Source: Stenotrophomonas sp. BIO128-Bstrain (lineage in GTDB: Bacteria; Pseudomonadota; Gammaproteobacteria; Xanthomonadales; Xanthomonadaceae). From it: a DNA stretch of 64,000 nucleotides. Location: assembly GCF_030128875.1 (NCBI RefSeq), contig NZ_CP124620.1, positions 2,232,001-2,296,000 of the forward strand, read 5' to 3'. A program made the position numbers and the translations under genes. The notes under the pieces are model-generated. The model did no database searches. It was not told the DNA's origin and was given only the letters and a program-made list of their open reading frames with translations. Positions within the stretch are counted from its first letter, which is position 1, and each line of letters begins with the position of its first letter. Positions 21,145-35,055 of the stretch are shown one piece after another.

Positions 21145-21600
21145 TTACGAACCCAGCGTCACCGCAGCCGGTTCCAACTCGCCGGAGACACCGGTCCACG
21201 CCGCAAGCAGACAGCCAAACCCCGTGGGCGCGTCGCCCACTGCGGGCAGGACGGCCAGAAATCCGTGCCAGGGCGCATCGATGATGCGCGCCAGTGCTTC
21301 GGGCTCCACTGCTGCGGAGGCCATCGTCCAGCGGGGGAAGTGGCGGGCACCGACCGACCCGCGCGCAAGCTCGCGCAGGTTGGTATGGATGCGCGCGTTG
21401 AACACACGCTGGAATACCGAATCCACGCCATCCTCCGGACCTTCGAAATACTGCAGGAACCGACGCCCGTCGAACATCAGCACGCCGGTGACGCCGGCCA
21501 CTTTATTGAATCCCGATGCCGCGCGCAGGATCTGATCGATATCAGACGTTTCGATTCCATCGACAGCGTCGCTGACATAAGCGACCGCATGCAGCGGCAT
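21145..21600 (-). CDS. BLUF-domain blue-light photoreceptor (copy 1)
   Basis: A 151-residue short BLUF protein. The domain covers residues 1-95 and the rest is a helical cap with no output domain. The residues needed for FAD photochemistry are present at the expected spacing: Tyr8, Asn32 (in GFNKVAGVTG), Gln50 (in RRFLQYFEG), Trp91 and Met93; they match Tyr21, Asn45, Gln63, Trp104 and Met106 of AppA. The start MPLHAVAYVSD is chosen by comparison with the second copy at 27145-27606. Short BLUF proteins act through protein partners; none is encoded next to it. Confidence 0.93.
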   Translation of the reverse strand: MPLHAVAYVSDAVDGIETSDIDQILRAASGFNKVAGVTGVLMFDGRRFLQYFEGPEDGVDSVFQRVFNARIHTNLRELARGSVGARHFPRWTMASAAVEPEALARIIDAPWHGFLAVLPAVGDAPTGFGCLLAAWTGVSGELEPAAVTLGS

Positions 21601-25478: not shown

Positions 25479-26564
25479 ATGACAGACCGCCTCACCCTGC
25501 ATCTTGTCGATCCACCACCGGCACCGCCGCCCACCGTTCGCCGCGCGCCACTGCGCTGGCGGCCGCTGCTGTCGGCGCTGCTGCTGGCCGGCTTCTATGC
25601 CCTGCCGTGGCTGCGCTGGGAGGGCCGCCAGGCACTGTTGTTCGACCTGACCGCGCGCCGTTTCGATCTGTTCGGCTGGACGCTCTGGCCGCAGGACGTG
25701 GGCATCCTGCTGGGGCTGGCCGCCGTGCTGGCCACCACCCTGGTGCTGCTGACCAACCTGGCTGGCCGGGTCTGGTGCGGCCATGTCTGCCCGCAGACCT
25801 TGTGGAGCCGGTTGTTCCGCTGGATCGAACAGGCCGCCGCGCACTGCCTGCCGGCCGCACCGGCGCGCGCGGCCAAGCATCTGCTGTGGCTGCTGGTGGC
25901 CGCGTGGACCGGCATCACCTTCGTGGGCTTTTTCAGCCCGATCCACGGTCTGGTCGGCACGCCGTGGCCGCCGGCCTGGAGCGGCTGGGAAACGTTCTGG
26001 ATCCTGTTCTATGCCGCCGCCACCTGGGGCAACGCGGGCTTCCTGCGTGAACATGTCTGTCGCGAGTTGTGCCCGTATGCGCGCGTCCACGGCGTGTTCT
26101 GCGACAGCGACACGCCGCGCATGCACTATCACGCGCGTCGCGGTGAGCCACGTGGCCCGCGCGTGGCGGGGTTGGGTGGCGTGCAGGACCGTGGCCGCGG
26201 ACTGCTCGATCCCACCAGCGCCAGCGATTACGCGTTCCGCGCCGCGCATGAGGACATCGCCGGCCCCATGCCGCACTTCAGCGCCGATCGGCTCGGCGAT
26301 TGCCTGGATTGCGGGGACTGCGTCACCGCCTGTCCGATGGCGCTGGACGTGCGCGCCGGGCCGCATGCCGATTGCATCGGCTGTGGCGACTGCCAGGACG
26401 CCTGCGATGCGCGCATGCGTGCGTGGCAGTTCCCGACCGGTCTGATCCGCCGTGCCAGCCCGTCAGCCATGCAGCAACGCCCGCCACGCTGGATCCGCCC
26501 GCGCACGCTTGCCGCGGCCAGCACGCTGCTGGCCCTGCTGGGCATCGGTCTCCATTACCTGTAG
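25479..26564 (+). CDS. CcoG/RdxA-like 4Fe-4S membrane protein, short form
   Basis: A 361-residue polyferredoxin with about five membrane segments. Redox cysteines are at CGHVCPQT (Cys100, Cys104) and CRELCPYAR (Cys194, Cys198). Two 4Fe-4S motifs follow: CLDCGDCVTACP (Cys275, 278, 281, 285) and CIGCGDCQDACD (Cys299, 302, 305, 309). The layout matches CcoG, which reduces copper for cbb3 oxidase assembly. It is about 100 residues shorter than usual CcoG because the C-terminal Ig-like FixG_C domain is replaced by a single helix. No ccoNOP genes are nearby. An ANR box lies upstream. Confidence 0.85.
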   Translation: MTDRLTLHLVDPPPAPPPTVRRAPLRWRPLLSALLLAGFYALPWLRWEGRQALLFDLTARRFDLFGWTLWPQDVGILLGLAAVLATTLVLLTNLAGRVWCGHVCPQTLWSRLFRWIEQAAAHCLPAAPARAAKHLLWLLVAAWTGITFVGFFSPIHGLVGTPWPPAWSGWETFWILFYAAATWGNAGFLREHVCRELCPYARVHGVFCDSDTPRMHYHARRGEPRGPRVAGLGGVQDRGRGLLDPTSASDYAFRAAHEDIAGPMPHFSADRLGDCLDCGDCVTACPMALDVRAGPHADCIGCGDCQDACDARMRAWQFPTGLIRRASPSAMQQRPPRWIRPRTLAAASTLLALLGIGLHYL

Positions 26565-26618
26565 TGGCGCCGCGTTGGCGGTTGTCCCCGTCCCGATTCC
26601 CGGTCCCCCGACCCGGTT

Positions 26619-26867
26619 TCAGCGAGCGCGCGGTCGCGCACTGCGTGGGGGCACCAACTGGGCGCGCCGCACGATCCCCAACTGTTCGATGATCAACGCC
26701 AGCTCATTGGTGACACGGGTTCGCGCGGTGCCCTGCGCCGGTGGGACCAGTCGCTCCAGCACGCGCTGGTAGGTGGACCAGAATTCCGGGCCGCAGCCAT
26801 GTTTCACGTAGCTGGCTTCCAGCTCGGTTCGCACTCCGTCAGCCAAGTCATGTTCGCCGTATTCCAT
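26619..26867 (-). CDS. Small hypothetical protein
   Basis: An 82-residue protein starting MEYGEHDLADGVRTELEASYVKHG. GGAGGT lies at good spacing upstream, so the start is firm. The protein is soluble and mostly helical in pattern, with a basic C-terminus (PPRSARPRAR). It contains one cysteine and no known motif. It is monocistronic, downstream of a direct repeat and possible promoter. The function is unknown. Confidence 0.7.
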   Translation of the reverse strand: MEYGEHDLADGVRTELEASYVKHGCGPEFWSTYQRVLERLVPPAQGTARTRVTNELALIIEQLGIVRRAQLVPPRSARPRAR

Positions 26868-26919
26868 ACGACCTCCGTGGGACTTGCTTGCTTCAGGGAC
26901 GACAAAACCCCCTCAGGGG

Positions 26920-26941
26920 CGGATTCACTTCGGGTTCACTT
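26920..26941. repeat. Tandem 11-bp direct repeat upstream of the 82-residue gene
   Basis: CGGATTCACTT and CGGGTTCACTT follow each other directly. The repeat lies just downstream of a possible minus-strand promoter (TTGACT at 26966-26971, A/T-rich -10 near 26943). It looks like an operator. The remaining sequence up to the BLUF stop at 27145 shows no gene. Confidence 0.45.
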
Positions 26942-27144
26942 AAAATTTGCACTTCCTTTGCATTAAGTCAATTACCACACGGCCAAAGGCCACGCCCCTG
27001 ATGAATGGTTCATCTCGCGCCTGCGCCCGCATCTGCATCATGCAGGGCGCATATTGACAGCAGCATGTCAGCGCGGCGGCGGATACTCCGCCTCTGGCCG
27101 GCTCCTGGTATCAGCCCCTGCGGGTAAACGCTGCAGGCGTCATC

Positions 27145-27606
27145 TCATTCCGCTGCCGAGCGCACCGGCTGTGACGCGGCCTGCCCGGGCAGGTGCGGGG
27201 CGACGAACTGCAGCAGCCGCTCCATCCCGCTGCCCGCCGGCGAGCCGCCGGCGATACGGTCTGCGAAAGCCTCCCAGTCACCTGCCGAGAGCACCTCGAT
27301 CAAGGCAGGCTCCACGCCCAGCCAGCGCATGCTCCAGTACGGGAAAAAGCGCTGCGGTACGCGCGCGTGGCCGAGCTTGTGGATGGCGCGATGGCTGCGC
27401 GCCTGCAACACCCGCTCATGCACCGCCGACACCCCGTCATCGGGACCTTCGAAGTACTGCAGGAAACGACTTCCGTCGCACAGCAGTACGCCGGTTACCC
27501 CCGCCAGGCTGTTGAAGCGGATGGCATCCTCGACAAGGGCGTCAAGATGCGCCGCAGACAGCGGGCCCGCAACGTCGCTGACATACGCGATCGCGCATAA
27601 GGGCAT
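27145..27606 (-). CDS. BLUF-domain blue-light photoreceptor (copy 2), next to the KaiC/kinase locus
   Basis: A 153-residue short BLUF protein starting MPLCAIAYVSD, with CGGAG 7 bases upstream. All key residues are present at canonical spacing: Tyr8, Asn32 (FNSLAGVTG), Gln50 (SRFLQYFEG), Trp91 and Met93. The tail after residue 100 is helical with no output domain, so it must signal through another protein. It lies 151 bases downstream of the hybrid histidine kinase, on the same strand; this gap may hold its own promoter. It is a paralogue of the BLUF gene at 21145-21600. Confidence 0.94.
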   Translation of the reverse strand: MPLCAIAYVSDVAGPLSAAHLDALVEDAIRFNSLAGVTGVLLCDGSRFLQYFEGPDDGVSAVHERVLQARSHRAIHKLGHARVPQRFFPYWSMRWLGVEPALIEVLSAGDWEAFADRIAGGSPAGSGMERLLQFVAPHLPGQAASQPVRSAAE

Positions 27607-27757
27607 GGGTAAACTCCGACATTCTCAAAGCACTATGCTGGCACTTTCAGGTATCTAAATAAAGCCGCTGGCTGAAGCATTCAGATGCCGCCGCAAACGA
27701 AAGTTTCCATCGCGCGGTGGTTTCGTCACCCGGGCCGCTGCGGGCAGCCGCGCGCAC

Positions 27758-29812
27758 TCACTGCCGCGTGGCGATCGAACTACGTACTGCCTCACTGAAT
27801 GCATCGAGCAGGAACGGCTTGGCGATCATCGCCATGCCGTTGTCGAGGAACGCCGAGCGTTCCTGCGCCTTCTCCGCGTAGCCGGTCATGAACAGCACCG
27901 GCAGGGATGGCCGCGTCTGCCGCGCGATTTCCGCCAGCTGCCGCCCATTGAGACCGGGCAGCCCGACATCGGTGATCAGCAGGTCGATCTTCTTCGACGA
28001 GCCAAGGATGGGAATGGCGCCATCGGCGTCGCCGACCACCTCGGCGGTATACCCGAGATCCTCAAGCACCACCGTCACCAGCATCCGCACCTGCTCGTCG
28101 TCCTCCACCACCAGGATCGACTGCCCGGCGCCAAGCGATACCGCCTGCGCGTTCGGCGTGTCCTCATCCTCGGCCGGGTCGTGCACCACCGGCATGAACA
28201 AGGACACCGTCGTGCCCTGCCCTGGCGTGGAGTCCACGGTGATGTGGCCCCCGGACTGCTGCATGAAGCCGTAGATCATCGACATGCCCAGCCCGGTGCC
28301 CTTGCCGATCGGCTTGGTGGTGAAGAACGGCTCGAAGATCCGTTCGACCACCTCCGGCGGCATGCCGGTGCCGGTATCGGACACGGCCACCACGGCGTAC
28401 TCGCCGGCCGGGATGGTCGGCACCTCCGCCTCGGCGACATGCACATGCGAGGTGCGCAGCCGCAACTCTCCACCATCGGGCATGGCATCGCGTGCGTTGA
28501 TGGCCAGATTGAGCAGCGCGCTTTCAAACTGGTTGCTGTCCAGGTTCGCGCGCAGCGGGGTATCGCTGGTCACCATCTGGATGCGGATCGTTTCCCCCAG
28601 GGTGCTGCGCAGCAGGTGCTGGACCGACCCCACCAGTGCGTTGAGTTCGACGGTTTTCGAATCCAGCGATTGCCGGCGCGAGAACGCCAGCAGGCGCTGG
28701 GTCAACGCGGCCGCACGCTGGCTGGAGGCGGTGGCGGCATCCAGGAACCGTTCCAACCCTTCCATGCGCCCCATTTCCACGCGCATGCGCATGATGTCCA
28801 GCGAGGACAGGATGCCGGTCAGCATGTTGTTGAAGTCATGCGCGATGCCGCCGGTGAGCTGGCCGATCGCATCCATCTTCTGCGACTGGCGCAGTGCGGC
28901 TTCGCTGGCTTCGCGCGCGGCCATCTGGTGTTCCAGTTCGGCGGTGCGCTCGGCCACCATCGCCTCCAGGTCCAGCGCGTGCTGCTGGCTGGTCTCCAGG
29001 GCCAGTTTGGAGGCGGTGATATCGGTGACGAACACGTGGAACCCGTCGGGCGTTCCATCCGCATCAACGCGTGGCGAGTAGCGGATCTCACTGTCGCGCC
29101 GCCGGCCATCGCTGAACGGCCAGTTCGCCTCGAACACGATGTGCTCGCCGGCCAGCGCACGTTCGATCAACGGCCGGCGACTGGTCCACACTTCCTGCCC
29201 GAACACGTCGGGCACACGCCTGCCGATCACGTCCGAAACCGGCCGCTCGAACCAGGCTTCATACGCCTTGTTGGCGAAACGGTAATTCAGGTCACGGTCG
29301 ATGAAGGCGATCAGCACCGGCATCGCGTCGGCCACCAGGCGCAGTTCGGCTTCGCTGCGCTCCAGCGCGGCACGCCCATCGGCCAGCGCCCGCATCTGGT
29401 CACGCACCAGGAACTGCTTGTCGCGCGCGCGCAGCGCACTGCGCACCGAACTCAGCAGCGAGCTGCTGCCCAGTGGCCGGTCCAGTTCGATGATGTTGAT
29501 CGCGAGCTGCAGGCCGGCGTCGGCCAACGGCCGCTTCTGCGAGCGCGGGGACCGCAGCAGGATGAAGGGTATATCCGACCAGGACGGTTGCCGGGCCAGA
29601 GGCTCGAGCAGGGCAGCCGTGCCTTTCGCCACGGCCTCCTCGGTGACCACCACCGCGCCCACCTCGTCATCAAGCGCATCGGCCAACCACGCCAGGCTTT
29701 CGTGGATCGTGGTCCGCAACCCGGCGGCGTTGAGCACGGCAGCGATGCTCGGCGCATCACGCCCGAACGGTGCAACGATGTGCACCACGCCGGACGTGGC
29801 GTCAGTCTGCAC
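27758..29812 (-). CDS. Hybrid histidine kinase: pseudo-receiver, PAS, HisKA, HATPase, receiver
   Basis: A 684-residue soluble sensor kinase. Residues 1-130 resemble a receiver domain, but the phospho-acceptor position reads VVVTEEA and the usual Lys-Pro is ELDRPL, so it is a pseudo-receiver. A PAS domain covers about 155-270, then a short coiled coil. The kinase core has GGIAHDFNNML (His325), NLAINARDAMP, DTGTGM and GKGTGLGMS. The C-terminal receiver has Asp615, Thr643 and Lys665. The start overlaps the kaiC stop by 11 bases, so the two were one operon. Kinases of this plan accompany KaiC-like ATPases in several non-cyanobacterial genomes. The input signal is unknown. Confidence 0.93.
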   Translation of the reverse strand: MQTDATSGVVHIVAPFGRDAPSIAAVLNAAGLRTTIHESLAWLADALDDEVGAVVVTEEAVAKGTAALLEPLARQPSWSDIPFILLRSPRSQKRPLADAGLQLAINIIELDRPLGSSSLLSSVRSALRARDKQFLVRDQMRALADGRAALERSEAELRLVADAMPVLIAFIDRDLNYRFANKAYEAWFERPVSDVIGRRVPDVFGQEVWTSRRPLIERALAGEHIVFEANWPFSDGRRRDSEIRYSPRVDADGTPDGFHVFVTDITASKLALETSQQHALDLEAMVAERTAELEHQMAAREASEAALRQSQKMDAIGQLTGGIAHDFNNMLTGILSSLDIMRMRVEMGRMEGLERFLDAATASSQRAAALTQRLLAFSRRQSLDSKTVELNALVGSVQHLLRSTLGETIRIQMVTSDTPLRANLDSNQFESALLNLAINARDAMPDGGELRLRTSHVHVAEAEVPTIPAGEYAVVAVSDTGTGMPPEVVERIFEPFFTTKPIGKGTGLGMSMIYGFMQQSGGHITVDSTPGQGTTVSLFMPVVHDPAEDEDTPNAQAVSLGAGQSILVVEDDEQVRMLVTVVLEDLGYTAEVVGDADGAIPILGSSKKIDLLITDVGLPGLNGRQLAEIARQTRPSLPVLFMTGYAEKAQERSAFLDNGMAMIAKPFLLDAFSEAVRSSIATRQ

Positions 29813-30561
29813 GGGTGTGGCCGAGCAGATGCGCCGTATTGCCCACGAATTCCGGCGTGCCGGTCAGGATCCCCTTGAACTCGTTGAGGGGCGCACTGAG
29901 CGAAATGCCCTTGCCGTCGATATTGAGCTCGCGGATCGTGTTCTCGTGCGCACCGCCGCGGTTCTTGATCACCGAGATCGCCTTGCGGATCCGCCCCTGC
30001 GACTCGAAGAAGCGGAACAGCACGACCGAGTCGGCGATGTAGGACACGTTGAGATTGCCCGTGGACATGGTGCCGACCAGGCCATGCTGCGGATTGATCA
30101 GGATGGTCGCCACGCCCTTCTGGTTGAGATAGGACAGCATCTCGTGCAGCTGGAGCATCAGCTGCTTTTCCTGCGGCATCGCCGTGACGTAGCCGTTGAG
30201 GCTGTCGATCACCAGCAGGCGGCACTGACGTTCTTCCACCGCACGCTGCATGTTCCAGGCGAACTCGCCCGGCGAGATCTCGGCCGGGTCCACCTGCTGG
30301 ATCTCCAGCAGCCCCGTCTCCAGATGTTTGCTGAGGTCGATGTCCAATGACTCCGCGCGGGCCAGCAAGGTGCCGATGCGCTCATCGAATTCGAAGATGC
30401 AGCAATGCTCACCTCGCTCGCACGCGGCCCACACATACTGCAGCGCCACGTTGGTCTTGCCGCTGCCGGCCGGGCCGGTCAGCAACGTGCTGGTGCCCCG
30501 TAGCGGTCCACCACCGAGCAGGCTGTCGATCTCGCCCACCCCGCTGCTGATCGGGGTACCC
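29802..30561 (-). pseudogene. kaiC: kaiC, 3' part (second ATPase domain), separated by an ISL3 element
   Basis: This holds the second KaiC ATPase domain (residues about 248-499 of the rejoined protein). It has Walker A GPAGSGKTN (276-284), the CIFEFDERIG acidic motif, LLVIDSLNGY (Walker B) and the C-terminal VIKNRGGAHENTIRELNI. At the positions of the Ser431/Thr432 phosphosites of Synechococcus KaiC the sequence reads VSYIAD (Ser420, Tyr421). A GTG at 30539 could re-initiate and give a 245-residue single-domain protein. Removing the insertion and one target copy joins it in frame with 31880-32619 to a 499-residue KaiC. Confidence 0.93.
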
Positions 30562-30569
30562 TTGAATTT
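30562..30569. repeat. Target-site duplication, left copy
   Basis: TTGAATTT directly flanks the left end of the insertion element. The identical copy is at 31880-31887. Eight bases is the usual ISL3-family duplication. Confidence 0.95.
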
Positions 30570-31879
30570 GGTTCTTCACCCAACTCCGGGGAAGGCCGCC
30601 CGGATCTTCAGGAAGAAGTACGCGTCATCTCGGTATCCGTAGGCAACGCGCTTGATGACCTTGATCTTGTTGTTGATGCCTTCCACCAGGTTCGTCCCGA
30701 GCGGCCATCGGCAGTGGGCCAGGATGCCCGGGAGATAAGGCTGCAGACGGCGGACAAAGATGCGCAGCGGCTCCAGCCCGCTTCGCAGGGCGCGATGCTT
30801 CCATGACCGCCAGGCCTTCTCCGCCCAGCTCTGGCTTCGGTAGCGCCACAGCTGCTTCAGGTCGTCTTTGAGCAGATAAGTGGTCAGCAGGGCTTTGTTG
30901 GCGGCCAGCAGCTCCTCGAGTTGGACGCGCTGCTCGGCCGGGACGTTTTGCCGGTTGCGCAGCAGGAGCCAGCGCGAGGTCTTCACCACCCGTCGCGCGG
31001 GCTTGTCGGTGCGTAGGCGATTGGCCTCGTCCACCCGCACCCGATCAATGACTTCGCGCCCGTACTTGGCCACGACATGGAAGAGGTCGTAGACCACTTC
31101 AGCATTGGGGCACTGGGCTTTGACCTCCACATCAAAGGCCGAATTCATGTCCATTGCTACGGCTTGGATGCGTTCGCAACCGACCCTGCCGAGTAGTTCA
31201 AAGAAGGGACGGATGTCAGCGCGGCTGCGTCCTCGGCCGACCCAGAGCACGCGCTTGCGCGATGGCTCGACGACCACGGTGGCGTAGCGATGCCCCTTCT
31301 GGATCGCAAACTCGTCCATCGCGATCACGCGTACGTCCGATAGGTCCACTGGGCCCAGCGTCTGCATCAGATGCCTGAAATCAAGCGCTTTGACCGTCTT
31401 CCAGTCCAGACCATGCCACTTTGCGGTGGCATGGATCGAGGTGGTGGCGCACATGCGTGCCACGCTCTGCGCAAGCCGTTGCGTTACCCGGGCATGCCGC
31501 TCCAGCCAATCCAAGTGCTCCAGTTTCGGCCCGCAGCGAGGGCAGGCCAGCCGCTGCCGCTGGACTTCCAACTCCACCGGCTCGTCGAACACGGGCAAGT
31601 CACGGATGCGCCGGAGCGTCTGGTCGTGGATGGCCACGACCCACTTGCCGCAGCCACTGCAGCGTCGTCGGCGGCGTGAATCAGGCAACAGCGAAAGCAC
31701 CAGCCACGTGGCTCCGCCACGTGCCTCGCGGCGCCATCCATCCAGGCGATACCCCGCCCAGCCTCCCAGCAACGGCATACAATCCAGCTTGGCCACGGCC
31801 GGCCTCGGTTTGTTTTCTCGACAACTACAAATCTAGCTGGTCGGCCGTGCGCCTTCTCCCCTCAGATGGGAGAAGAACC
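30570..31879 (-). mobile_element. Complete ISL3-family insertion sequence inside kaiC
   Basis: A 1310-bp element. The ends read inward as GGTTCTTCACCCAACTCC and GGTTCTTCTCCCATCTGA, an imperfect terminal inverted repeat with the first 8 bases identical. It has one long transposase gene and perfect 8-bp target duplications. No second copy is present in the window. The transposase is on the same strand as kaiC, so transcripts from the element may read into the kaiC 3' part and the kinase gene. Confidence 0.96.
30576..31796 (-). CDS. ISL3 family transposase
   Basis: A 406-residue DDE transposase. The N-terminal zinc-binding part has CSGCGKWV and LACPRCGPKLEHLDW cysteine pairs. The catalytic triad is visible in VIAMDEFAIQKGHRYAT, IQAVAMDMNSAF and NLVEGINNKIKVIKRVAYGYRD. 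The length is standard for the family and there is no frameshift, so the element is probably still active or recently so. The stop codon lies within the left inverted repeat. Confidence 0.97.
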   Translation of the reverse strand: MAKLDCMPLLGGWAGYRLDGWRREARGGATWLVLSLLPDSRRRRRCSGCGKWVVAIHDQTLRRIRDLPVFDEPVELEVQRQRLACPRCGPKLEHLDWLERHARVTQRLAQSVARMCATTSIHATAKWHGLDWKTVKALDFRHLMQTLGPVDLSDVRVIAMDEFAIQKGHRYATVVVEPSRKRVLWVGRGRSRADIRPFFELLGRVGCERIQAVAMDMNSAFDVEVKAQCPNAEVVYDLFHVVAKYGREVIDRVRVDEANRLRTDKPARRVVKTSRWLLLRNRQNVPAEQRVQLEELLAANKALLTTYLLKDDLKQLWRYRSQSWAEKAWRSWKHRALRSGLEPLRIFVRRLQPYLPGILAHCRWPLGTNLVEGINNKIKVIKRVAYGYRDDAYFFLKIRAAFPGVG

Positions 31880-32619
31880 TTGAATTTGGCGTGGTGGTCC
31901 GAGGCGATCAGTCGCGGAAACACCTCCAGACCGCCCTCGCGGATGGTCATGTCATGGTAGCCGGCAGTGAAGTTCACCCCGCGCAGCTTCTGCACATGCA
32001 TCCGCCGGCGGGCCGGACCGAAATCCAGCGTCAGCCGTTCCAGCGATACGACGCCATGACACAGGCTGTGCAGCTGGCCATCACGCTCCTCGCCGGAGGC
32101 GGTCATGTCATCGACCAGCACCACGGTTGCGCTCTTCGGCGCGAAGAACTGCTTGAGCGACAGAATCTGCCGGCGATAGCGCAGCGGATCCTGCGAGAGC
32201 AATCGCAGCTCGGAGAGCGAGTCGAACACCACCCGGTGCGGCTTGATGCGCTCCACCTCGCCCAGGATCAGCTTGACCGTCTCATCCAGCTCGACCTCCC
32301 AGGAGTGCAGGACCGACTGCATGCGGCCGTCGCCCAGCGCTTCCTCGGCCGAGGCCAGCTCGAACAGGTCCAGCCCGTCCAGCGACCAGCCGTGAGCGTT
32401 GGCGACTTCCCGGAGTTCGTCAGCCGTCTCGGAGAGCGTGATGTACAGGCAGCGCTCCCCCTTGCTCAACCCGTGCAGCAGGAACTGCAGGGACAGCGTG
32501 GTCTTGCCTGAGCCGGGCGGACCCTCGAGCAGATACAGCCGCCCCTGCGGGAAGCCCCCGCCCAGGATGCTGTCGAGGCCTTCGATACCCGTCGCTACGC
32601 GTGCTTTTTGTGTCTGCAT
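31825..32619 (-). pseudogene. kaiC: kaiC, 5' part (first ATPase domain), truncated by an ISL3 element
   Basis: The first 247 codons of a KaiC-like ATPase, then 17 codons of insertion-derived sequence to a stop. The start MQTQKARVATGIEGLDSILGGGFPQGRLYLLEG is normal for KaiC. Walker A is GPPGSGKTT (33-41), with a single acidic residue in TLSETADEL and Walker B VVFDSLSEL (130-138). KaiC proteins are RecA-like, usually double-domain ATPases; in cyanobacteria they run the circadian clock, elsewhere they act in poorly known signalling. The original gene started 130 bases after tRNA-Cys and had no strong ribosome-binding site. Without the insertion it would encode 499 residues. Confidence 0.93.
31880..31887. 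repeat. Target-site duplication, right copy
   Basis: TTGAATTT, identical to 30562-30569, directly outside the right end of the insertion element. Confidence 0.95.
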
Positions 32620-32716
32620 AAGGCTGCCAATATGGACGGGCGCAGCATACGAAGCGGGTTGTGTAGGCCCTGTCGGCTCTCGCCTGCGAAACTGAATGGA
32701 GGCCCACAACGCACAA

Positions 32717-32734
32717 AGCCCGCATGCGCGGGCT
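32717..32734 (-). terminator. Probable terminator of the tRNA-Cys transcript
   Basis: The stem AGCCCGC/GCGGGCT with a 4-base loop is followed on the minus strand by TTTGTGCG. It lies 18 bases beyond the tRNA 3' end and upstream of kaiC. Confidence 0.55.
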
Positions 32735-32751
32735 CTGGGCTACTTTCTATT

Positions 32752-32825
32752 TGGAGGCCTGGGTCGGAATTGAACCGGCGTACGCGGATTTGCAGTCCGC
32801 TGCATGACCACTCTGCCACCAGGCC
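32752..32825 (-). tRNA. tRNA-Cys(GCA)
   Basis: A 74-base tRNA with an encoded CCA. The acceptor pairs GGCCTGG with CCAGGCC. The anticodon arm reads CGGACTGCAAATCCG, anticodon GCA. T-loop GGTTCAATTCC. It follows tRNA-Gly on the same strand, as cysT follows glyW in E. coli. Confidence 0.97.
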
Positions 32826-32902
32826 GGTGACCCTACGATCATCGGAGGCGTGTTGCATGCCCCGATAGAGCAAGACCCCGAGAACGGGGCCTGGTCAGGA
32901 TT

Positions 32903-32978
<76 letters not shown>

Positions 32979-33090
32979 AAAATCAAGCGTGCATGTTACC
33001 GAAACCACTCGAAACACACCAGCTTTTTCACACTTTTTTTCACATCCCGGCCAATGCTTCCGGACCGGATGCCCGCGTGCCACCGCGGAG

Positions 33091-33114
33091 AAAAACAAGG
33101 CCCCGAGGGGGGCC
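33091..33114 (-). terminator. Terminator after tRNA-Gly copy 2
   Basis: The stem GGCCCC/GGGGCC is followed on the minus strand by TTGTTTTTC, 12 bases past the tRNA. Copy 1 may therefore need its own promoter or read-through. Confidence 0.65.
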
Positions 33115-33125
33115 CTGTCGAAATC

Positions 33126-33201
<76 letters not shown>

Positions 33202-34078
33202 AGACTTTCGCTTGCCCCGACGGCACCGCACCCTGGGGTGCTGGAGGCTGTCGGCCCCTCGACCTGCGTCGAAGGAGCGCTATTCTGTCGGAATTCCTTC
33301 ACGTCGTCAACATCCTTTTTGCTGCATTTCCGTGCGTTGCCTCGGGCCGTGCGAGCCAAGGGATGCACCCCGGCTACACCCGCATCCCCTGCCGGTGGAA
33401 ATAGCTCTGTTCGGCGATCCGCTGCATCGCGCCGGACTGCAGCATCAAGTCGATCGGTCACTCCACCTGCAGGTGCTCCATCGCCCAGCGCAACGCGCGT
33501 CTGGACCGGAACCTGGGCGCCACCCGCGCCGCTGCGGCTTCGGCCGGCCAACCCTCGCCGCGCAATGGCAGGGCGACCGCATCGCCTACCGCCCAGCCGT
33601 GCCGCCAGGACGAATGGATGCCGCCGGCCGAGCGGGGCAACACATCCCGGCCGCGTCGCCTGAGGATCACGCCCGGGCCGGTGATCGGCCCATCGCGCAC
33701 CCCACACGGCACTCGGTCGCACTAAGGCAGATGCCCGAGTGGGGATTAAGCCGAACCTGCGACGTGTCTGAACATTGCAACTCGTTGCATGGCTTGGCCG
33801 CAGGGTCTGGCACATCCTCAGTTGAAACGCAGGTCTGCCGTAGCAACCATGGCGCTGCATTTGGCGCCACCAGCCCGGGCGGCAATGGAAGGAACCGAGC
33901 TGGAATCAGCTACAGGGAATCTCCTTTGATGCCTACTGGAGACGCCTCCATGACCTAATACGCGAGCAGAGCAACGGATCACTCCAATGAATTCATCTTT
34001 GTCATGGACGAACAAGCTGGATAGCTGGGGGACGAAGTTGCAAGGAACAGAACGACGTTATCCATAAGCCCAGCCCTC
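33202..34078. other. Region without a firm gene between tRNA-Gly copy 2 and the AT-rich cassette
   Basis: The first part holds the tRNA-Gly promoter. On the minus strand 33390-33712 contains an 84-codon GTG-start reading frame ending in ALRWAMEHLQVE, a stop, and then in the same frame 27 codons ending QSYFHRQGMRV and a second stop. The amino-acid text is protein-like, so it may be a decayed gene with an in-frame stop. From about 33720 the base composition becomes AT-richer. Longer ORFs here on both strands are not convincing. Confidence 0.4.
33282..33310 (-). promoter_or_regulatory. Sigma-70 promoter of tRNA-Gly copy 2
   Basis: On the minus strand TTGACG (33305-33310) and CAGAAT (33282-33287) are separated by 17 bases. 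A GC-rich discriminator (AGCGC) follows, as in stable-RNA promoters. Confidence 0.7.
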
Positions 34079-34516
34079 ATGAAAAACACAATAGCGAAAT
34101 TGTGGGAACAGGAATTACTTCCAATCAAGGACGCCATCTACTTCTCCAACGGGGAGTCTCACGAATGCAGGATTACGACCCATCCAGTTCCGAGCATAAA
34201 CGTCGGGGAGAAATTCAGCCTTGACGACTTTAACGAACACAATAAGCAGGACGTCTGCGCCATAGACATTTTCAAGGAAATCCCTCTCACCACTGGAGGG
34301 TACTGCTGCACAGGTGGATGCAGCTATGGATCCGACGGATTTATTGCTTACCTGGACAACGAAAGGAACCTTGCCTGGGCGATTTACTCATCATCATCAA
34401 ACCCTTTCACTGATGCCGTCCAAGTGGACGATCGAACAGTGAAGGTGACAACCACCACGAACCTTGAAATCAACATCGATCTCGAAAGCCCCCTAACCCT
34501 TGATCTCACCCAGTAG
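34079..34516 (+). CDS. AT-rich orphan protein, immunity-protein-like
   Basis: A 145-residue soluble acidic protein starting MKNTIAKLWEQELLPIKDAI. It contains GGYCCTGGCSYGSDGFIAYLD with three cysteines, and a beta-rich C-terminus. Codon use is much more AT-rich than the neighbours, a sign of horizontal transfer. No Shine-Dalgarno site is clear. The general look (small, acidic, aromatic, AT-rich, in a cassette of unrelated small genes) is that of polymorphic-toxin immunity proteins, but no family is recognised and no toxin is next to it. Confidence 0.65.
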   Translation: MKNTIAKLWEQELLPIKDAIYFSNGESHECRITTHPVPSINVGEKFSLDDFNEHNKQDVCAIDIFKEIPLTTGGYCCTGGCSYGSDGFIAYLDNERNLAWAIYSSSSNPFTDAVQVDDRTVKVTTTTNLEINIDLESPLTLDLTQ

Positions 34517-34626
34517 CCACCCGTCCAAAGAATGCAAAACAACACATCATTTGCATCGCACCTCATCCAATACCACGCAGACGGGACACACACCCCCAAC
34601 TTACCCAGTAAAACAAATGGACATAA

Positions 34627-34944
34627 ATGAAAATCACTAACGGGAAAAAGGTAGAACTTCGCACCTTCTTTGGCACAAGCACTCCAAACCAAACCACGCG
34701 CGCCTCCGAAAATTACTGGAAGCTCATCGGACAGGCCGGAACGGTTATAGCGCAAGAGAATGAGTCCAGCCTTCCTAGACACAAACTCGGCAGCCGGGTA
34801 CTAGTCGAATTCACCGCATGCATCACTGATCTTGGTCTCATCTGCCACAACGAAGTACCAGACAGCCTTTGGATCCTAGTGACAGACCTAGTCATAGCCC
34901 CGGAGAATCAACCATCAAGTTCGACAGAGCAAGCTAATACCTGA
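34627..34944 (+). CDS. AT-rich orphan protein with SH3-like pattern
   Basis: A 105-residue soluble protein starting MKITNGKKVELRTFFGTSTP. The central part, YWKLIGQAGTVIAQENE and GSRVLVEF, followed by LGLICHNEVPDSLWILVTDLV, suggests a small beta-barrel. It lies 110 bases after the previous orphan gene on the same strand, with the same AT-rich codon use. The function is unknown; an immunity-type role is only a guess from context. Confidence 0.6.
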   Translation: MKITNGKKVELRTFFGTSTPNQTTRASENYWKLIGQAGTVIAQENESSLPRHKLGSRVLVEFTACITDLGLICHNEVPDSLWILVTDLVIAPENQPSSSTEQANT

Positions 34945-35055
34945 CAACTTTATCTCGGGTCCGTCGATATCCCATATCCCCAATGACTTACCGACTGCGT
35001 CATCCTTCCCATCATCATCTCCGGCACGAGCACCCACGTCCTCTCCAATGCGTGG

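Follow-up and report, generated by a model that had tools for sequence, protein, structure and literature searches.

A kaiC-kinase pair of a published type beside a probable bystander BLUF gene in Stenotrophomonas, with kaiC split by an ISL3-family insertion sequence

KaiC is a hexameric two-ring ATPase, and short BLUF photoreceptor proteins are of the BlsA and PixD types; genes for both lie on the minus strand of a 64,000-nt stretch of the genome of Stenotrophomonas sp. BIO128-Bstrain (the window, in which all coordinates are given, and the window strain, respectively), with the gene of a hybrid histidine kinase between them. Pairs of kaiC and kinase have been described before, as the 'second kaiC context' of De Luca et al. 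(2011; PMC3164672), the extract of which reports that a specific kinase, its receiver-like N-terminus conserved, consistently comes after kaiC, that kaiB is absent, and that the phosphosites are of the SY, TY or SF kind. The same extract reports cotranscription of kaiC and kinase in Ramlibacter, determined by reverse transcription PCR, and treats the BLUF genes of the Ramlibacter genome apart from kaiC. The window locus shares with Rta_04330/Rta_04340 of Ramlibacter tataouinensis, as described there, the kaiC-then-kinase order, the receiver-like N-terminus, SY-type phosphosites and the lack of kaiB, and differs in that its kinase is a hybrid with a C-terminal receiver (a comparison with Rta_04340 by description, without alignment), its kaiC is split by an insertion sequence (IS), and the block stands between tRNA-Cys and a BLUF gene. 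With the cyanobacterial KaiABC clock and its CikA and SasA kinases it has in common a two-domain KaiC and a pseudo-receiver in a KaiC-linked protein, as in CikA and KaiA (extract of PMC12632262), whereas the window genome yields no KaiB family match, its KaiC has Tyr in place of Thr432, and its pseudo-receiver lies at the N-terminus of a PAS kinase. The KaiC of environmental Pseudomonas, as cited in the extract of PMC11832031, is linked to stress resistance and biofilm formation, with no evidence for a circadian function. Among open-licence papers on KaiC with BLUF or on either KaiC or BLUF in Stenotrophomonas, no linkage of the two genes is described in the titles and opening lines of the abstracts.

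The kaiC-kinase pair is of the kind published in 2011; the locus of this species is a member of that type, of which the window strain holds a broken copy. With a probability that we put at roughly 0.85, the findings below are explained by such a pair, without KaiB, standing beside a bystander BLUF gene, its kaiC having since been split by an ISL3-family element. On the minus strand the genes run tRNA-Gly, tRNA-Gly, tRNA-Cys, KaiC CI frame, ISL3 element, KaiC CII frame, hybrid kinase and BLUF (Table 1). Translation and Pfam confirmed the set of genes on one strand given in the first-pass annotation of this DNA, and the kinase start (GTG at 29812) overlaps the end of the kaiC frame (29802), as it had also recorded, by 11 nt. 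Aligned to Synechococcus KaiC, the protein of this species has Ser at 431, Tyr at 432 and Gly at 426, and hence SY-type phosphosites; its best match among solved KaiC structures has an E-value of 8.2e-58, and alignments with the best solved chains stop near residue 486 of 499. A search that covered KaiB (PF07689), not KaiA, gave no match in the window genome at E 0.001 and matched 6 of 14 control genomes, Synechococcus included, so the reported absence of KaiB is borne out genome-wide at this threshold.

Conservation of the pair is extensive. Traced by its CI domain, kaiC is present in 29 of the 91 Stenotrophomonas genomes examined, and the kinase stands directly downstream in all 28 other kaiC loci of the genus (the most distant partner, in genome G228, at 35-40% identity) and directly after kaiC at 5/5 loci from a neighbouring genus in the same family. 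Together with the published precedent (extract of PMC3164672), this adjacency supports the KaiC-kinase half of the interpretation in the first-pass annotation, and these sequence data suggest that KaiC may bind the kinase. A third conserved neighbour was sought around 22 Stenotrophomonas loci and the flanks proved mixed, several of their long reading frames resembling wrong-strand frames and two flanking proteins serving as queries. At two loci (L160 in G201 and L162 in G172) the kinase frame is 576 residues long and the match seems to end before the C-terminal receiver; given this apparent lack, the relay may end differently there.

The N-terminus of the kinase is the part most closely tied to kaiC. 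Pfam delimits PAS (residues 162-268), HisKA (317-382), HATPase_c (425-542) and receiver (566-676) domains, and finds nothing over the N-terminal region when given the window kinase alone. A profile of 22 homologues of this region matches receivers (PhoB, E 6.7e-6; FixJ, 8.5e-4; also CheY), and the phospho-Asp column holds Glu58 and the Lys column Arg112 in the window kinase, as read by eye with an uncertainty of one column. The profile matches and Glu58 thus lend support, at the level of sequence, to the earlier proposal that the kinase starts with a pseudo-receiver. A KaiB-like fold, hinted at in the extract of PMC3164672, was considered for the same region and found no support, as neither KaiB nor SasA is among the 60 of 68 profile matches listed. 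When relatives of the kinase were collected from named genomes (at least 593, of which the best 80 loci were kept), kaiC lay directly upstream of 31 of the 34 kinases with a pseudo-receiver and of none of the 46 without; the domain is therefore the likely KaiC-coupling part of the kinase. No kaiC was detected just upstream of the remaining three (L212, L213 and L233), among which L213 starts too close to a contig end for this to be judged, and at one of the 46 (L222) the matched kinase is followed downstream by a kaiC-kinase pair distinct from it. L212 and L233 may be orphan or divergent pseudo-receiver kinases. Several points temper this assignment: the phospho-acceptor column varies, being Asp by eye in 5 of the profile's 22 rows, so that some homologues may not be pseudo-receivers; the profile was drawn mostly from kinases that neighbour kaiC, which favours detection there; and the 80 loci share descent and are not independent.

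The BLUF protein has all the residues previously listed for it (Tyr8, Asn32, Gln50, Trp91 and Met93), which we take to be those of BLUF photochemistry, and consists of a BLUF core with a short C-terminal extension, in which Pfam finds no output domain. It shares these traits with short BLUF proteins in general, and differs in having a conserved upstream element of its own. Its gene adjoins the kaiC-kinase pair in 7 of the 29 kaiC-bearing Stenotrophomonas genomes (the window genome, G155, G202, G211, G190, G183 and G170), starting about 2.2 kb past the kaiC stop, and the kaiC tree places these seven in a single clade (support 95/99). A BLUF profile had no match in the sequence retrieved around kaiC (flanks of about 7-8 kb) from the remaining 22 Stenotrophomonas genomes, and none near 31 further named kaiC-kinase loci and the five of the neighbouring genus (flanks of roughly 5-8 kb, shorter at contig ends; these two sets have at least one contig in common). 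In wider samples both genes occur in 9 of 149 genomes of the family and in at least 3 of 369 of the class (at most four kaiC candidates scored per genome), and are close together in the window genome only; in eight family and two class genomes they are separated by more than 100 kb or fall on separate contigs, with the limit that G143, a fragmentary assembly, has them on contigs too short for linkage to be judged.

Immediately upstream, the BLUF gene is separated from the kinase by 151 nt (27607-27757), within which lies an element of the pattern CTGAA-N3-TTCAG-N(17-25)-CTGAA. This pattern, which was derived from some of the sequences scored, fits 7/7 kaiC-linked and 5/7 unlinked BLUF orthologues, one of the two misses (G203) differing by a single base, and none of 30,000 base shuffles of the upstream stretches. 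Given the gap and this element, there is no indication that kinase and BLUF share a transcript. The element is a CTGAA-N3-TTCAG palindrome with a third half-site 21 nt on, and may be an activator site. We also considered it as a regulon signal, an idea dropped because the full pattern occurs once in the window genome, upstream of this BLUF gene.

How the two came to be neighbours is suggested by relatives in which kaiC lies elsewhere. In three genomes (G175, G200 and G171) a BLUF orthologue with 63-66% identity is the gene next after tRNA-Cys, within the pgsA-tRNA neighbourhood that the window also has, and kaiC is absent from that site; in a fourth, kaiC-less genome (G193), tRNA-Cys was not found beside the orthologue. 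In G175 the kaiC-kinase pair is flanked on one side by a gene that by eye resembles an amylase gene and on the other by a large one resembling a peptidase/transporter gene, and 3.7 kb of that locus (L158, 7873-11599) corresponds to about 31 bp between aligned flanks in the window genome, an empty counterpart some 525 kb from the window's kaiC. That the window genome lacks the pair where G175 has it fits a move. The motif CTACACA lies upstream of kaiC in 11/11 genomes compared (4 BLUF-linked, 7 not), and its presence at kaiC genes at different sites suggests that kaiC arrived with its own upstream region. Relocation of the kaiC-kinase block is the simplest reading, its direction being probable: in an ancestor of the seven sampled genomes, the two-gene block would have landed between tRNA-Cys and a pre-existing BLUF gene. 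As the block came to lie by a BLUF gene already equipped with its own upstream element, BLUF is probably independent of the KaiC system.

The kaiC gene of the window strain had been described as a two-domain gene, of which the domains stand, both matching PF06745, and the single gene does not, because they fall in two open reading frames with an ISL3 element between them. The first-pass annotation made no mention of this break, although its call for uninterrupted neighbourhoods in related genomes hints at it. The insertion point is in the interdomain linker between the two ATPase domains and is flanked by a perfect 8-bp duplication. ISL3 elements generate duplications of this length, and transposase, terminal inverted repeats and duplication are all present here, the element being an ordinary member of the family apart from its location inside kaiC. 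It has five copies in the window genome with 100% identical transposases. Of the four outside kaiC, three lie between perfect A8 or T8 pairs and one between a pair with one mismatch; the element thus sits in A- or T-rich octamers. Compared with the intact 499-residue KaiC of a same-species genome (G155, L146), the CI and CII fragments together lack residues 248-254 only, and kaiC is uninterrupted in 6/6 other genomes of its clade, one of them from the species of the window strain. Because the element separates the CI and CII reading frames, the KaiC arm of the window strain is probably inactive or altered.

The first-pass annotation suggested that light, through BLUF, and KaiC converge on one kinase, a view under which the block would have been retained by BLUF since the inputs are coupled, and it had named a lack of BLUF linkage at kaiC-kinase loci of other genomes as grounds for abandoning it. 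In its favor, the three genes are contiguous in 7/7 sampled genomes of the clade and on the same strand, and a BLUF protein in which no output domain was found needs some partner. The linkage nevertheless has a single origin, is missing from the flanks of the 22 Stenotrophomonas, five neighbouring-genus and 31 named loci as well as from the other two-gene genomes of the wider samples, and BLUF occupies the same position, with a comparable upstream element, in genomes that have kaiC at another site. Since linkage is confined to one clade, the module idea largely fails; convergence on one kinase is unsupported, and we regard it as improbable. Some observations do weigh against our preferred explanation of a kaiC-kinase pair beside a bystander BLUF. 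Linkage has been kept in all seven sampled clade genomes, which neutral neighbours would not need; the comparison with another site involves one relative (G175); and loss with separate regain would look like a move. Any BLUF match is found in 29/29 kaiC-bearing and 55/62 kaiC-less Stenotrophomonas genomes (Fisher p 0.09), a difference in the same direction that we set aside as an argument, being too weak either way. In addition, both KaiC halves retain open frames, so that loss of function is not proven.

This last point leads to the view that the split KaiC still works, in which CI and CII, made separately, would still assemble, and expression of CII and the kinase would start inside the IS or downstream of it. 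An insertion in the interdomain linker that leaves the fragments short of just seven residues would suit such a protein, and CII lies in the frame of the transposase, whose stop codon precedes the CII GTG by 36 nt, which makes reinitiation at CII possible; no ribosome site is evident by eye before that GTG, however, and a scan of 26950-33000, blind to other promoter types, found no sigma-70-like promoter (0.9 expected), so that we consider a working split KaiC unlikely. The insertion itself could be an artefact of assembly, as five copies with identical transposases are the type of repeat that misleads assemblers, yet the element in kaiC has a perfect 8-bp duplication, as at three of its four other sites, and the genome is a single contig, which makes misplacement extremely unlikely. 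Scarcely more credible is the boldest combination, in which the clade has one light-and-ATPase input system acting on one kinase and the IS has made CI and CII separate rings. If that were true, the IS-split KaiC would be a natural experiment uncoupling the two rings.

Under the preferred explanation, a kaiC-kinase pair beside a bystander BLUF, the nucleotide or phosphorylation state of KaiC would be read by the pseudo-receiver of the kinase, which would autophosphorylate and hand the phosphate on, from His to Asp, to the receiver at its own C-terminus and then to some downstream protein, while BLUF would act on another partner. In the window strain the ISL3 insertion would have come later, and the KaiC arm is probably impaired. 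The idea that a heterotroph couples a blue-light sensor to a KaiC timer is, on these grounds, probably a gene-neighbourhood trap, traceable to one event in one clade. More specific is the hypothesis, now with sharper support, that the pseudo-receiver marks and probably mediates KaiC coupling. The kinase family concerned occurs in Stenotrophomonas and as far afield as Pseudomonas, Sphingomonas and Bradyrhizobium, and on this hypothesis the output of KaiC in heterotrophs could be tested with two proteins. To what had been described, the analysis adds modestly: the counted link between pseudo-receiver and kaiC, the probable relocation, and a kaiC split by an IS.

Table 1. Features of the kaiC-kinase-BLUF region, in window coordinates.
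Feature	Position	Strand	Basis or remark
Two tRNA-Gly genes, upstream of tRNA-Cys	32903-32978 and 33126-33201		
tRNA-Cys (gca), left neighbour of kaiC-kinase block	32752..32825	-	
CCTACACA in region upstream of kaiC	32660..32667	-	11 upstream regions compared
KaiC CI-domain fragment, 247 KaiC residues and 17-residue IS-encoded tail	31825..32619	-	PF06745 E 4.1e-42
Target-site duplication AAATTCAA, CI-side copy	31880..31887		
ISL3-family insertion sequence, 1310 bp, ends GGTTCTTC...GAAGAACC	30570..31879	-	
ISL3 transposase, 406 residues	30576..31796	-	PF01610 E 8.9e-65; NF033550 E 8.9e-97
Target-site duplication AAATTCAA, CII-side copy	30562..30569		
KaiC CII-domain fragment (downstream half), 245 residues, possible GTG start at 30539	29802..30539	-	PF06745 E 1.2e-28
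Hybrid histidine kinase, KaiC partner kinase, 684 residues, GTG start at 29812	27758..29812	-	Pfam, profile searches, position behind kaiC
Kinase N-terminal pseudo-receiver (likely KaiC-coupling domain), residues about 10-135	29408..29785	-	Receiver matches by profile
Conserved element CTGAATGCTTCAG-N21-CTGAA, ends 39 nt before BLUF ATG	27646..27684	-	Fits 12/14 BLUF orthologues
Short BLUF photoreceptor gene, 153 residues; neighbour, probably outside KaiC system	27145..27606	-	PF04940 E 1.9e-20; solved BLUF relatives; orthologues at tRNA-Cys without kaiC

Around these genes, an Rfam search of 26000-35000 returned nothing but tRNAs. A separate terminator scan predicted four against 2.9 expected, all four on the opposite strand. 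A second short BLUF gene lies in the window at 21145-21600 on the minus strand, about 5.5 kb from the first and 43% identical to it over 129 residues. BLUF matches number four in the window genome, including a close pair near 2.594 Mb. The highest numbers come from G197 and G205, where a single Stenotrophomonas genome has 10 BLUF matches, seemingly many for a heterotroph.

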